Positions 3,078-62,300 of a DNA stretch of 64,000 nucleotides are shown in pieces; position 1 is the stretch's first letter, and each line of letters opens with the position of its first letter. The stretch is from Erythrobasidium yunnanense (taxonomy: Eukaryota > Basidiomycota > Cystobasidiomycetes > Erythrobasidiales > Erythrobasidiaceae). The translations under genes were made by a program, and so were the position numbers. Under the pieces are notes generated by a model. That model searched no databases. It saw only the letters and a list, made by a program, of their open reading frames with translations, and had not been told where the DNA came from. Location of the stretch: the NCBI GenBank assembly GCA_001600175.1, contig BCJC01000007.1, positions 1,388,115-1,452,114 on the forward strand, in the 5' to 3' direction.

Positions 3078-3448
3078 CTACGCGCTCGCTTCGTCAGCAA
3101 CAGGCCATTTCTTAACACCGTTGTCCTCGCCCTTCATTACGGATTTCTGCGTGTAATGTTAGCCATGTACGCGTGGACCTGAGCAGGACTTACGCCGGTC
3201 TTTGCTATCTTCTCACGAACTGTGTCGAAGTCAGGCGTGCCCGTTGCCGACTTGACGATAACCTGTTTATCCTCCCAAGACACCTTCTCTACCTCCACGC
3301 CTGCCATGCATGACCGTCAATGACTGCGCCCGCTCGTGCCGACGCTGCTGTTCTCACCTTCGAGCTTGGACAACACACGGCTGACCGCGCCTGAGCATCC
3401 TCCGCAAGTCATGGCCACCTCGAAGGTGTATGTGTGGGGTTCGCTCAT
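3078..3448 (-). CDS. ATX1: Copper metallochaperone Atx1, 88 aa
   Basis: This cytosolic chaperone hands Cu(I) to the N-terminal domains of the Ccc2 ATPase. The model has three exons, 3448-3358, 3300-3194 and 3146-3078 (91+107+69 nt), joined by introns of 57 and 47 nt. It begins MSEPHTYTFEVAMTCGGCSG, with the copper-binding M-T-C-x-x-C motif. It continues with KLEGVEVEKVSWEDKQVIVK and a C-terminal lysine patch (IAKTGKSVMKG). The length is right for the family (yeast Atx1 is 73 aa), plus a short acidic tail. The gene is split into pieces shorter than 60 codons, so it is easily missed. Its partner CCC2 lies 7 kb to the right. Confidence 0.88.
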
Positions 3449-3979: not shown

Positions 3980-4167
3980 GGCCTAATGGTCTAGTAAGCT
4001 ACCTACAGCCATTCTACAATGCTCTAAGCTAATAACCAATCGAAGGTCGCATGATTTGTTCGTTCCCACCCATCTGCCCTCCAAAACTCCCGCTAAGACC
4101 TCCAAACAGCTGCTTTGGGTATAAACAACACTGCAGAAGGTCCTCGGTTCAATTCCGGGTTGGGCCC
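3980..4167 (+). tRNA. tRNA-Pro(UGG) candidate interrupted by three introns
   Basis: The 5' end GGCCTAA (3980-3986) pairs fully, with one G-U, with TTGGGCC (4160-4166). The T arm CTCGG-TTCAATT-CCGGG (4143-4159) is canonical. Between them lie two 52-nt segments with GT-AG borders, 3994-4045 and 4058-4109, each with a CTAA-type branch-like motif, and a 12-nt segment 4120-4131 at the usual 37/38 intron site. Removing all three leaves pieces 3980-3993, 4046-4057, 4110-4119 and 4132-4167, a total of 72 nt. That RNA has the tRNA-Pro D stem GTCT/TGAT, a 7-nt D loop, a perfect TCTGC/GCAGA anticodon stem and the loop TTTGGGT with anticodon TGG. One flaw is that the usual D-loop G18 would be C. A T5 run at 4224-4228 could end Pol III transcription. 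Alternatives are a decayed tRNA or a coincidence. Confidence 0.6.
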
Positions 4168-4858
4168 TTCGTTTCTGGCGCTCCTTCTTCATGTCTGTCC
4201 ATCCCGATGGGCGGCCGCCTTCCTTTTTGGCGTGGACGCCTACGGCTTGCTCGCAAGACCCTGCAAGGCCAACATGTCTTATTACTAGCGTCTAGTAGAA
4301 TGCTGCCCCTTTTGATGCGGGCGGGAAGAGTGCAGCAGCAGCCTGGCCAGATGCCTTTTAACCCCGACTCCTCCAGCAAGTCAAAGAATTTTTTATGATG
4401 TCGCAACACATCTATACATGTTCACATACACCAGAAGACCTCATATCATTCAAGGAAAACCCGCGGCGAACCTGTCTGCGGCTTGTAGGCCGATTTCTTC
4501 CTCACGCAATTTCGCATAATTCAGAAGTGCTCCCAAAAATTCAAGAAGCATCACAGATGTACCACACGATCTCTTGAACACGTATATACATTGGTTTAAG
4601 GTGTGCGAGCGTGAATAAATGGACTAGAGCGGATTTGACGCTGTTCGATCAAGGCTCACCGTTGGCTGCTTCACAGGCCTGCAGCGGCCACAAGACATAA
4701 TATCACATATACATACATGCTATAGCTGGCCTGTGTGGAGGCAAGACAGACTGTATCGACAATATGTCGCGTCGCCCAAAAAACGTGACTTTCGGCTGCT
4801 TGACCAAACGCGCTCACACACGACATGAAGCAGCAGTGTACGAGCACTCTGTTGTATT
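4168..4858. other. Intergenic, no gene seen
   Basis: No supported gene. It contains T runs at 4224-4228 and near 4389 that could act as Pol III terminators for the tRNA-like locus. Confidence 0.4.
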
Positions 4859-57464: not shown

Positions 57465-59206
57465 ATGACAATGGCTGGAAACGCAGGGAACGATGTCCTC
57501 GTAAGCCGAAAGTCTGGCAAACCACTACGCATCTGGGTCGCGAAAGGCCCGCGTCAAGCCAAGGTCGTGAAAGCCATCGAGGCGCGTGAAACCGACCATG
57601 TTTGAAGAGTTCTCCATCCTGATACGAATACACAGTTCCTCGGTGGGACCGCTCTGACTGGCCCTGTGGGAGATGCGCAATACGCATTGCTCGATAAAGG
57701 CGCGCCGGACCTCTACACTGTCTGGCAAGACATTCAGCGCCAAAGGGCCAAAACCGAGATACTAGATGGTCAGCTTGATGCCATCTTCCCGCTGCGAGAG
57801 CGCGTTGAAATAAGCCTCTAATGCTTACAGCTCAATGGGTCTTCGACTGCAAGATCCAGAATGACCGGCTGGAGAAACAGCAATATGTAATCCTCAAGCC
57901 TAAAGAGCCTCCTAGAAAAGCTACCCGCACAGCGTTCACTGCCGAAGAAGATGAGGCTCTGGCCAAGTTCCTGTACAAGCAGGGCATGGGCAAGTCAGGG
58001 ACAGCAGTATATGGTTTGATGGAGAAGCAGTATCCAAATCACAGTCTGCAGTCATGGCGGGAGAGATACAAGAACAACAAGAATAAGATGGAAGCGTTGA
58101 TACAGGTCTACAGCAAGATTGTGGAGAAACGGCGGGATGACCACGAAGATGTCATCTTTAGCGACGATGAGGAAAATCGAGTGACTCTGCAGAAGAGTGC
58201 TGTCGCAAAAGGCAAAGGCAAGGCGAAAGAACAAGAAAAGGGCAAGAAGCAGGAGATCCCCCCGCCTCGACTGAAGTGGACTGCTACTAGGGAGCCTCTT
58301 AGTCCAGGCCCTTCTGTCGCAGCCATATCCAAACAGACTCAGGCGGCCGAGCCAGAATCGCAAGAGAAGGATGAACTGGAATCGCAAAATCGAGCAAGTG
58401 TAGACGCATCGCCCTCTGCTTCGCCTGAGGTTCATCAGACGTCGAAAAAGCGGAAAAGACTGTCGGGTCCTCAACCATTGGAGTTTGCAGCTGTCGAAGC
58501 GAGGCGACCTGATGCGATATCGGCGGTCGAGCAATCGGGGAGTGTCAGGCAGGCCAAGAAGCAGAAATCCACGCACACATCAACAGTCGCATCAGATGCG
58601 GCGCCTGTAGCCAATCCAGCCGTACCAGAGCCTCAAAGTACAGCGCGTCGAGATCGATTCCTACCTTCCACTAGCCCTCTTCTCGATACAGAAGAACGCA
58701 GAAAAACTCCCCCACAAGTGGTCTCTCTCGAAATGGCAGAACGACCAAGTGCTATCCGCAAAGCCGATGTCGTTACCAACGCTGTATTGAAGACAGCTAC
58801 AAGGAATCCGCTTCTGTGTCGGGCTCCTCCCGCAAGTTTACGCGACAATGATTGGACAAGCAAGCATTTATATACTCTCCTAAGCATGCCGCAATTTGAT
58901 GATCTACAACATGCATGCTCAGGATCCGAGCAAATAGCATTCGACCTGGCTCAGCAGCTAGCGAAAGGTTCGCAATCCATAGTCAATCTCCATCTCGAAG
59001 CAGACATTCGCAGGTCCTTCTGGACTCCTGAAGAGGATGAAGTGGTATTAGCGTTACTGAGAGACGAGGATCCCGATGCCAAGGAGATTCTGCTGGATAT
59101 GCACGGGTCCGAGAAGGTCGAGAAGCGCAAGGCATACCTGAGCAATATATACAAGGATAATGTGAATCCAATGAGGGGAGTTCCCCGATGTTTCCCGTTC
59201 GCCTGA
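57465..59206 (+). CDS. RAP1: Rap1-like telomere protein (BRCT + Myb), 547 aa
   Basis: Exons: 57465-57599, 57636-57768 and 57831-59206. The N-terminal BRCT-like region begins RKSGKPLRIWVAKGPRQAKV and ends LDAQWVFDCKIQNDRLEKQQ. The Myb domain lies near residues 125-175 (RTAFTAEEDEALAKFLYKQG, YPNHSLQSWRERYKNNK). A Lys/Glu-rich linker with a basic patch (KGKGKAKEQEKGKK) follows. A second Myb-like stretch sits near residue 485 (FWTPEEDEVVLALLRDEDPD). BRCT then Myb is the Rap1 order. Rap1 binds shelterin partners and, in fission yeast, Bqt4. Intron 1 is only 36 nt, the shortest in the window. The family call rests on domain order; a typical RCT domain is not obvious. Confidence 0.75.
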
Positions 59207-59343
59207 GCTCATGCGCGCGTCGTTGTAACACCAACTCGTTCTATCTCGGCAATTCAGCCATTCCAGCAGACGCTGGGCTTGTTCAGCTTGGTCTTACATC
59301 GCGCAAGCTCCTTCAATGCCAGCGCCAATACGGTGACCCCAGC

Positions 59344-62300
59344 ATGTTCAGCAACTTCAAGAATATCGTGACTTCAGGTCTGAACGAGCTGGAACGGCTT
59401 GGAGACGAGCTCAACGCTTCTCAGAATCAGCGTGGCCAGCAACAGCTACATAGAGGATACAGCGAAAGCGTACTTCCGTCAGCGGGACAGTCGTCAGGTC
59501 TCAATGCTGGATTCAGCTTTCCCAGAGCTACTTCGCCATTGTCTCCGGCTACTTCATCCTATAGCAATGCTCCACAAGTGAATGGCGCTCCCAATGGCAG
59601 CAGCGGCGACCGCGACCGACGAGACAGCTTCGACAACTTTACCGCGTCGTTCGGCCTTTCCGGCTTGAAGCGCTCGCTGAGTGGACTACCGAAGACTAGC
59701 CTTGATCTTACTGGTCTTCGCAATTCTTTCGACATCAATGCGTCTCCGACTATGCGCGCCCATGCGTCGCAATCAGTGGACCTGACTCCGTCGCGAGATG
59801 GTCGCGAGCTGGGCGAGTACCCAGGCTTCACTGTTGGTGGCCTCTCCGGAGGCCTTTCATTGAACACGAACGTTCCCTCTACTTCATTACCGCCAAAGAA
59901 TCGCCTGAAGAGACGGGCTTCAGCGCGCTCAGCATCCATGTCTGGCCCATATACGCCGAACACGATGATCAAGATGGACCCTTTCTTCTTCGCAACCCTT
60001 CAAGGTCTTCCGGACGAGCTGAAACAGGCTGCCTTCACGCCCTTGCCTACGGAAGACGACGATGAACTATTGGAGCAGCTAGACGCCGAATTCAGCCCAT
60101 CCACCAGCAGGCCTCACTTTATACACCCATTCCTGAATAGTAAGGCCGGCTCTAGCATGCCGATATCAGCTCCTTCCCATCAATCTGGCTACCCTACCAC
60201 TTCTCTATCTCGAAGCTTACCAGCTTCTGTTCCTTCATCTTTCCGCCCTTCGTCAGCACCTGCTGGTGCCAGCTTTCCCTTCAGCTCTGCGACTTCGGTT
60301 AGGTCGCCTTTGGCTGAGCCAGCCCGGCTACTCAGCAGTGTGCTTGATGCGCACGAGGAGGAGCAGCTTGATGCTGTTCTTGCCGAAGAAGAGACAGAGG
60401 AGTCACCTTTCAGACATACGCTGTCTTTGGAGGAGGTACAAGGGACCGACCAGAGAGATAGGCAGACCGACGAGCGGACGCCGGGACCGATCTTCGATGA
60501 TCTACCGGATGATAGCGCGGGGTCTCCCAGGGGGATCAGAAATTCAGAGGGACAACAAGACGCGCCGCCTAAGGACGCAGTAAACCAGCCGCAGCAAGCG
60601 GAAGCAGCGGAAGACACACCATCTCTAGCAGCGCCAGAACCTGAATCCGATCCAACGCAAGCTTCATCTGCTCAACTTGAGCCAGTATCAGAAGCATCAA
60701 CCGCTGTAAATGACTCAGCAGCGCCTACGTGCGAATTATACAAGCCGGAGCAACTCGATCTGCCGGGCGCGCTTGCGGAGCCACCCAAGCCGAACGAAGC
60801 CCCTACATCAGCTTCAGAGACTACGATAGCCGCAGCTGAGGCACCTTTGGAGCCTTCCCCGACTCCGATAGCTCCTAGTAAGCCCGAACAGAAGGTGCCA
60901 GAAAGTGCACCTAAACTTGAGCCCGACACTCCCACTCCAATAGTCGTATCGCCTCCAAAGGGTGCTCCGCTAGCGTCTGCCACCCCTGCGAAGCACGAAT
61001 CCCTCGCAGCCAGACTCGCTCGAATATCGCGAGCCTCGTCGCCGAAGGCTCCAGCTGCTCCCTCACTGTCGACCACAGCCAAACCCGATCCACCTTCCTC
61101 CTCTCCACGCCAAAGCCTCGATATAGCCAGACCATCTTCGCCAGCCAATCTTCCCGAATCTCAAGGTAATTTACCTGGTCATCTTGTAAGTGGAGGCCCG
61201 TCCGTGCTGACATTTGAATCTTCTCTTCAGATTCTTCCACTTCCACAAAGCTACAGGATGAGCGAGCGAAGCTGGAGAAGCTATTACGGCAATATACCAC
61301 TGTTACGAGCGCAGCGGACTTGGCAGGCTTCGAAGCTTTCCTGAAGAGCAAAGCCAATGGCCCAACTCAAAACGATGTCGAGAGCCTCAGAAATCAGCTT
61401 GAGACGGAACGAGCGAAGACAAGTGCTGCCCAGAATGACTTAGCGGAAGCTAGAGCAGCTACTACGAAAGCCGAAACTAAAGCTAAGGACGAGGAGGAAA
61501 AGAAGGCTAAGAGTATTACACTACTAAAGTGAGCATCCGCGAGTAATGTCTGCGTGCCATATGCTGACGCATACAACAGGGCCGTCCGCCAAAAGCTTAT
61601 CAAGTCCGAGAAAGACAAGGAGGAAGCGGAAGTAATGCGAGATGCAGCCCGAGCGTCAGAGGAGCAGAGCATCTCTGAAGCCCGTCAACTCAGGCAACGC
61701 TTCGACTCGGAGACATTATCACTCCGGACGACCCAAGAACAACAGCTAAATCGTCTCAAAGCTTCTTTTGAGCGAGAAGCCAATTCGATAAGGGCAGCGT
61801 ATGAGCAGCAGGCTGCGACACGGAAGAATCAAGCAGAAGTTGATATCATGACCGTTCGGTCTGCTCATGCGAAAGAGCTATCAGCCAGAGACAGCAGGAT
61901 TAACGCTCTTGAGGAGAATCTGCGGGAAGCTCGAAGGGAAAAAGATAAGCTGTTCCAAGAATCGCAATCGCGGCAAGCTGAGGTAGAAAGCGCTACGAGC
62001 GAGCAACAAAGGCTACAAGCTGCCCATGAGGAGATGCAGTACGAGCTCAGAGACGCCAGGGATAAAGCTTCATCACTACAAGAAGAAGTACAGTCCTTCA
62101 AGAAGGCCCGACTAGATCAGACTCGCGACGAAGGCCACACGAGACGTTTGCTGGCAGAAGCGGAATCGAATCATGCTGAGAAAGTCAGAGGGTATGAAGA
62201 CCGAGTGAAGGCCTTAGAAAGGGAGCGCAGTGATATCGAAGAGCGTATGGCGAAGAAGCTCCAGGAGAAGCTGCGCGAGGTGGAACAGATGCGACGGGAT

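Follow-up and report, generated by a model that had tools for sequence, protein, structure and literature searches.

Introduction

Spliceosomal splicing is normally coupled to RNA polymerase II (Pol II), and in other fungi U6 snRNA precursors made by Pol III are also spliced. Introns in U6 are cited in PMC5832005 (2017), according to which frequent interruption by an intron is known, among small structured RNAs, for U3 and U6 alone, and PMC2586383 cites an mRNA-type intron in the U2 snRNA of Rhodotorula hasegawae as well as spliceosomal introns in ascomycete rDNA. tRNA introns away from position 37/38 are described in PMC4090602: archaea, the red alga Cyanidioschyzon and nucleomorphs carry several of them per gene, also in the D and T arms, a tRNA-Pro(UGG) of one archaeon included. 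Those of archaea and Cyanidioschyzon are cut by the splicing endonuclease at bulge-helix-bulge motifs, and those of the Guillardia nucleomorph are 3-24 nt long, with a cutting mode given there as unknown. tRNA splicing is stated to be independent of the spliceosome in a 2026 review (PMC13149111), and a survey of open-access papers outside preprint servers, which may have missed a report, returned no published case of spliceosomal introns in tRNA genes.

The present analysis concerns a tRNA-Pro(UGG) locus in a window of 64,000 nt (C7:1388115-1452114) of a 20.9-Mb genome in 10 contigs. The locus resembles the fungal U6, U3 and U2 cases in carrying GT-AG introns within a short structured RNA gene, U6 being made by Pol III, and a U2 candidate of the same genome has three such introns; in contrast, the small RNAs that PMC5832005 names do not include tRNA genes. 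With the archaeal, Cyanidioschyzon and nucleomorph genes it shares several introns per gene, placed away from 37/38, but the inserts of this genome measure 51-69 nt and bear mRNA splice signals, unlike both the bulge-helix-bulge introns and the far shorter ones of Guillardia. The introns of ascomycete rDNA are similar in being mRNA-type and in occupying a non-coding gene that is not made by Pol II, but there the product is rRNA and the polymerase Pol I. Finally, the canonical 37/38 introns removed by the TSEN endonuclease are matched by the 12-nt insert at 4120-4131 and by short 37/38 introns in other genes, whereas the two 52-nt inserts elsewhere in the gene, with their GT..AG ends, are unlike them. 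Judged from sequence, the locus is very probably a functional nuclear gene for tRNA-Pro(UGG) that is split by a pair of U2-type spliceosomal introns and, in addition, by an ordinary intron of the tRNA-endonuclease kind, an organization that would be common in this genome.

Results and Discussion

Anatomy of the tRNA-Pro(UGG) Locus

The gene occupies positions 3980-4167 of the window on the plus strand, as an exon of 14 nt, an intron of 52, an exon of 12, an intron of 52, an exon of 10, an intron of 12 and an exon of 36 nt. Exon 1 (3980-3993; read from the sequence and by ARAGORN) covers tRNA positions 1-14, that is, the 5' acceptor strand and the 5' strand of the D arm, and is followed by the first GT-AG intron (3994-4045; GTAAGC..CGAAG), which lies in the D loop (14/15) and contains a branch-like CTAAT at 4029-4033. 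The remaining D arm up to position 27 is provided by exon 2 (4046-4057), after which the second GT-AG intron (4058-4109; GTTCGT..AACAG) interrupts the anticodon stem (27/28). The signals of this second intron are weaker, with the GTTCGT donor and, found by eye, a branch-like CTAAG at 4093-4097 in place of a CTNAY motif. Exon 3a (4110-4119) completes the 5' anticodon strand and holds the loop with the anticodon TGG; exon 3b (4132-4167) comprises the 3' anticodon stem, the variable loop, the T arm, the acceptor strand and the discriminator C. Between them lies the 12-nt insert (4120-4131; ARAGORN i(37,12)), which has no GT..AG and which, being short and located one base 3' of the anticodon, has the character of a canonical 37/38 tRNA intron. 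The A box is split by intron 1, and the B box GGTTCAATTCC, an internal Pol III promoter element, is uninterrupted (4146-4156, plus strand; C7:1392260-1392270).

The earlier note on this DNA, made from the letters alone, had proposed a 7-bp acceptor stem closing over 188 nt together with a canonical T arm; both are found as described, with GGCCTAA/TTGGGCC paired at 7/7 positions and the T stem CTCGG/CCGGG at 5/5. The borders it had placed around the two 52-nt GT..AG inserts agree base for base, and the CTAA-like branch motifs are present, that of intron 2 being weaker than CTRAY. Once the two inserts are taken out, ARAGORN recognizes tRNA-Pro(tgg) and places a 12-nt intron behind position 37. 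The fully spliced product, as had also been proposed, is 72 nt long, with paired acceptor, anticodon and T stems and TGG in a 7-nt loop. No tRNA is called by ARAGORN in the unspliced locus, and none was found in the whole window by ARAGORN and by Rfam at its gathering threshold.

That the locus might instead be a decayed pseudogene with chance insertions, tRNA-Pro(UGG) being supplied by other genes, is hardly credible. According to PMC4090602, a short insertion in an arm of a eukaryotic tRNA gene is supposedly the sign of a pseudogene, and the locus is among the weaker cases by its flanks, with no TATA element upstream and the nearest downstream T5 run, a candidate Pol III terminator (TTTTT, 4224-4228, plus strand), 57 nt past the gene. 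The D loop, AGTCGCA, is one G short, so that one of the usual G18 and G19 is missing. The earlier note was right to point this out as a caution; however, it is not damning, since the same D loop recurs, by eye, in an uninterrupted tRNA-Ala(CGC) gene (L046). In its minimum free energy structure the spliced RNA does not form a cloverleaf, and of 500 shuffled sequences 100 fold equally well or better. Against decay stand the stems, which are still paired after splicing, and a BLAST search of the assembly with the spliced sequence, in which no other Pro(UGG)-like gene was found and the match was the 3' exon of the window's own locus alone. The intact Pro(UGG) set elsewhere that would have spoken for a dead copy here, and a count of which had been suggested, is thus not seen in this assembly. 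Furthermore, 14 other loci are built alike, several of them the sole copy of their anticodon within our partial search, and three paralogous pairs keep their mature parts, not their introns.

Excision Tests and Controls

A blind test was applied in which the candidates were all segments of 48-72 nt that began with a host-like donor, had CTNA[CTG] close to the 3' end and finished in AG; none, one or two of these were removed, and success was defined as an ARAGORN tRNA ending at the end of the acceptor stem. Some donors entered the list once the loci had been seen, which slightly flatters the real side, and the shuffled controls used the same list. For the Pro locus, one of 10 combinations gives a tRNA (score 104.5), and it is exactly the intron pair of the earlier note. 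Over the interrupted loci described below, a tRNA was obtained in 15/15, the assigned introns giving the best score in 14; the exception is Lys-UUU, where a score of 108.7 is reached by two longer excisions to which no identity is given, against 105.9 for the assigned one, called as Lys(ttt). With nothing removed, a weaker and different tRNA is called for Asn-GUU (L117) and for one Gly-GCC gene (L019).

Among 2100 shuffled regions in which the T arm was kept (4244 combinations), 13 calls of any kind were obtained, six of them with an intron removed; one of these six scored at least 104, and no two-intron tRNA appeared in the 2100 regions. Decoy B-box sites (24 sites, 50 combinations) gave no tRNA call. 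In a separate comparison of 11 loci, ARAGORN recognizes a tRNA in all 11 after splicing, and before splicing it reports nothing in six, another identity in three and the same anticodon in two; the unspliced Lys(UUU) gene (L007) is misread as Gln(ttg).

Interrupted tRNA Genes across the Genome

Inserts away from 37/38 are present in 15 of the 33 tRNA loci read, 18 inserts in total at many positions, and the other 18 loci lack them. The insert positions were assigned by eye. Besides Pro-UGG in the window (14/15 and 27/28), two inserts are carried by L050 (Arg or Trp; 13/14 and 48/49) and by the Lys-CUU gene L043 (5/6 and 25/26), whose counterpart L038 has the 5/6 insert. The remaining positions in the acceptor and D regions are 9/10 and 14/15 in the two Gly-GCC genes (L018 and L019, respectively), 15/16 in Ser-UGA (L055, identity by ARAGORN), 18/19 in Arg-CCU (L096, a GC-AG insert), 20/20a in Gln-CUG (L029) and 22/23 in Asn-GUU (L117). 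The anticodon itself is split at 35/36 in Thr-AGU (L030) and Lys-UUU (L007). Further 3', Arg-UCU (L035) is interrupted at 48/49, and the insert falls inside the B box in Leu-AAG (L116, with its twin L130; 53/54) and Gln-UUG (L129; 59/60). Several interrupted genes also carry short 37/38 introns. The earlier note had read the Pro locus as a Pol III-type gene colonized by spliceosomal introns; this is the best reading, and the recurrence of the same pattern in 14 further loci strengthens it.

These counts refer to a partial search. Rfam gave 17 candidates over the cut-off and 23 at E ≤ 10, with 63 of 397 candidates scored over the 20.9 Mb; all 51 places matching the B-box pattern GGTTCRANYCC were read, and of the 87 places matching AGTTCRANYCT under half were read (30 as loci, one as L117 and one inside L079), 10 others having been viewed as 66-nt stretches, two of which were extended. 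B boxes of the CGTTC type (175 places) lie outside the locus count. Since the search reached the majority of loci by way of an intact B box, genes split within it are under-counted, and many isoacceptors were not located in the Rfam subset and B-box places covered. Lastly, L049 and L050 are called Trp(cca) by ARAGORN and by eye could be Arg(CCG).

The 33-locus set leaves out L130, L131 and three copies of a Glu gene (L047, L053 and L054). L116 (C8:146390-146680, minus strand) and L130 (C8:149300-149560) are inverted copies of tRNA-Leu(AAG), about 2.7 kb apart, with the intron in the B box. L131 (C4:1080960-1081320, minus strand) has a perfect T arm, a 3' acceptor strand and a T5 run; no tRNA was obtained upstream of its T arm in 40 combinations with up to two introns removed, and it is perhaps a tRNA gene with more introns. 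The tRNA-Glu(UUC)-like gene occurs in four copies (L047, L048, L053 and L054) near contig ends (C6 right, C9 left), which is a subtelomeric duplication; in L047 and L054 the 3' acceptor strand is mismatched.

Comparison with mRNA Introns

The 18 tRNA inserts are 51-69 nt long and comprise 17 with GT-AG and one with GC-AG ends; 15/18 have G at +5, 17/18 a CTNAY motif, 13/18 the stricter CTRAY and 16/18 a YAG acceptor. For the first 14 inserts, the counts of +5 G (12), of G[T/C]NNGY donors (11) and of CTRAY (10) were each matched by 0/5000 interior shuffles, and the YAG count by 276/5000. Eight of these 14 have a border that can be slid with the same product, and each has a single GT(GC)-AG placement. 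Host mRNA introns taken from unsupervised bridging of reading frames proved to be mostly false joins and were replaced by homology-defined ones: six introns of the window, from its ATPase and MET30-like genes, measure 50-71 nt, with +5 G in 6/6, CTNAY in 6/6 and CTRAY in 4/6. In their ends, in the host donor and branch consensus and in the host length range, the tRNA inserts therefore have the features of U2-type introns. To take 52 nt as the usual intron length here, as the earlier note did, was too narrow.

These features bear on a rival reading, in which the tRNA endonuclease would excise the inserts as non-canonical introns at bulge-helix-bulge motifs, in the manner of archaea, the red alga and nucleomorphs, and GT..AG would be incidental. 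Such introns, several per gene, are known from PMC4090602, genes of the TSEN family (PF01974) are present at two places in the genome, and several of the same tRNA genes hold short 37/38 introns. An endonuclease route, however, needs none of the signals that the inserts share with host mRNA introns, that is, GT/GC..AG in 18/18, +5 G in 15 and CTNAY in 17. The GC-AG insert begins with GCAAG, a known spliceosomal variant, and inserts of the same kind occur in the U2 snRNA candidate. We therefore regard endonuclease cutting of these inserts as very unlikely.

An origin of the inserts as introners was also considered and rejected, no sequence common to them beyond the splice signals having been found. 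Among 17 tRNA and three U2 introns (190 pairs), the best local score is 12, and shuffled sets give a mean of maxima of 10.9 and a maximum of 14; the best pairwise score is within the shuffled range, so that no shared element is apparent.

Paralogous Pairs

The clearest case is the tRNA-Gly(GCC) pair. The 71 mature nt of L018 and L019 are the same, but the intron is 55 nt long and at 9/10 in L018, 57 nt long and at 14/15 in L019, and consequently each is the intron-free reference of the other. Their introns do not align (79/500 shuffles as good), whereas their downstream flanks do (0/500), which indicates that the gene was duplicated and that intron gain or loss followed. In the Lys-CUU pair, L038 and L043 differ at 1/73 exon nt and the 25/26 intron is present in L043 alone; the 5/6 intron that both possess does not align (99/500 shuffles), nor do the upstream flanks (174/500), and the downstream flanks are weakly similar (13/500). 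L049, which is uninterrupted, differs at 3/72 mature nt from L050, which has two introns. Mature parts that are conserved while introns are free to differ, as these three pairs suggest, are the pattern of working genes.

Transcription Signals

A T5 run is located within 60 nt downstream of 13/15 interrupted and 16/18 uninterrupted genes, compared with about 1.3% of random positions; the two misses among the interrupted loci are the Gly pair, with T5 at 79 and 80. T5 inside the gene body is found in 0/33 loci. T4 inside the body occurs in 5/15 interrupted and 1/18 uninterrupted genes, and such an internal T4 could halt a Pol III that terminates at T4. A TATA-like element at -60..-25 is present in 6/15 interrupted and 8/18 uninterrupted genes (3.2% of random positions), and the similar frequencies in the two classes indicate no shift of promoter type. 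The flanks thus appear to favor Pol III for interrupted and uninterrupted tRNA genes alike.

It is conceivable that real spliceosomal introns reside here in mRNA-like precursors made by Pol II, so that the splicing is ordinary and the gene class odd. This is a variant of the best explanation, with overlapping weight, and it agrees with the usual coupling of spliceosomal splicing to Pol II. The introns inside the B boxes of Leu-AAG and Gln-UUG, which should weaken the internal promoter, point in the same direction. In Leu-AAG, by eye, the intron's own 3' AG completes AGTTCGAATCC, so that the DNA still contains a B-box-like stretch; in Gln-UUG (L129) the 3' part of the B box is broken by the intron. 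Nevertheless, the T5 runs within 60 nt of most interrupted genes and outside all gene bodies, the unshifted TATA frequencies and the splicing of Pol III-made U6 precursors in other fungi speak against it, and we consider Pol II transcription unlikely. Of the two possibilities left by the earlier note, Pol II transcription or an unusual splicing route, the T5 flanks favor the second, in the form of Pol III combined with the spliceosome, and Pol II is the less favored.

Proposed Processing Route

With Pol III and the spliceosome as the preferred combination, the gene would be transcribed by Pol III into a precursor of about 190 nt plus leader and trailer, ending at the T5 run. The spliceosome would excise the GT-AG introns first, since the RNA cannot fold as a tRNA until the D arm and anticodon stem are whole. 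Trimming of the 5' and 3' ends of the resulting pre-tRNA would follow, and the TSEN endonuclease would cut out the 37/38 intron. What is seen in the genome is the anatomy, the splice-signal consensus, the recurrence, the paralogue pattern, the Pol III-type flanks and the TSEN-family genes; from these we infer expression, the transcribing polymerase, the splicing machine and the order of the steps.

snRNAs and the Probable Role of the Spliceosome

The U2 snRNA candidate (G000 C2:2011000-2011650; L133, L118) scores 28.3 bits, below the cut-off of 46, in a family search that gave weak matches at E ≤ 10 in 7/14 prokaryote controls and none over the cut-off. Its order of exons and introns is GGCCTTTTGGCTTAG, GC-AG intron of 59 nt, ATCAAGTGTAGTA, GT-AG intron of 53 nt, TCTGTTCTT, GT-AG intron of 54 nt, AATAGATTAACATCT. 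The branch-binding region is held by exons of 13 and 9 nt, and once the three introns are seen the locus becomes readable as U2 against the U2 consensus. U6 snRNA was not found by a family search of the genome, whose prokaryotic control genomes cannot discriminate. The genome has 23 occurrences of an internal-loop motif of U6 (control, 13), none of which reads as U6, and 20 of a 5' motif with three mismatches (control, 16), none established as U6; one 5'-motif candidate, whose sequence was examined, is not U6. The undetected U6 may be absent, diverged or split by introns.

Taken more broadly, it is likely that tRNA processing in this lineage cannot do without the spliceosome. Much of the nuclear tRNA set, including apparently single-copy isoacceptors such as Pro(UGG), would come from Pol III precursors with U2-type introns nearly anywhere (the acceptor stem at 5/6, the anticodon at 35/36, the B box at 53/54 and 59/60); many would pass two unrelated splicing machines in sequence, and U2 snRNA would itself be split likewise. 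If this is true, translation depends directly on the spliceosome. The system would make it possible to test in nature whether Pol II, a cap or exons of useful length (some measure 5-15 nt here) are requirements of the spliceosome, and how introns are gained where no reading frame exists. It is also a warning that such genes escape tRNA finders or receive wrong names from them, as the Rfam counts and the reading of Lys(UUU) as Gln illustrate.

Neighboring Genes in the Window

About 0.5 kb from the tRNA-Pro gene lies a copper-chaperone gene (3301-3448, minus strand; MSEPHTYTFEVAMTCGGCSG..), presumably ATX1-like, with a 57-nt GT-AG intron at 3301-3357 (GTGAGA..CAG) and probably a second intron further on. 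The best named relatives of the copper-ATPase gene are about 64% identical (Rhodosporidiobolus, Sporobolomyces, Microbotryum and kin), and environmental proteins reach 70-77%. An F-box/WD40 gene has a 97% match with jgi as its source. These matches place the fungus probably within Pucciniomycotina. A gene for a Rap1-like telomere protein with Myb and C-terminal domains is overlapped by a long open reading frame that has no Pfam match (57809-59203 and 59161-61341, plus strand).
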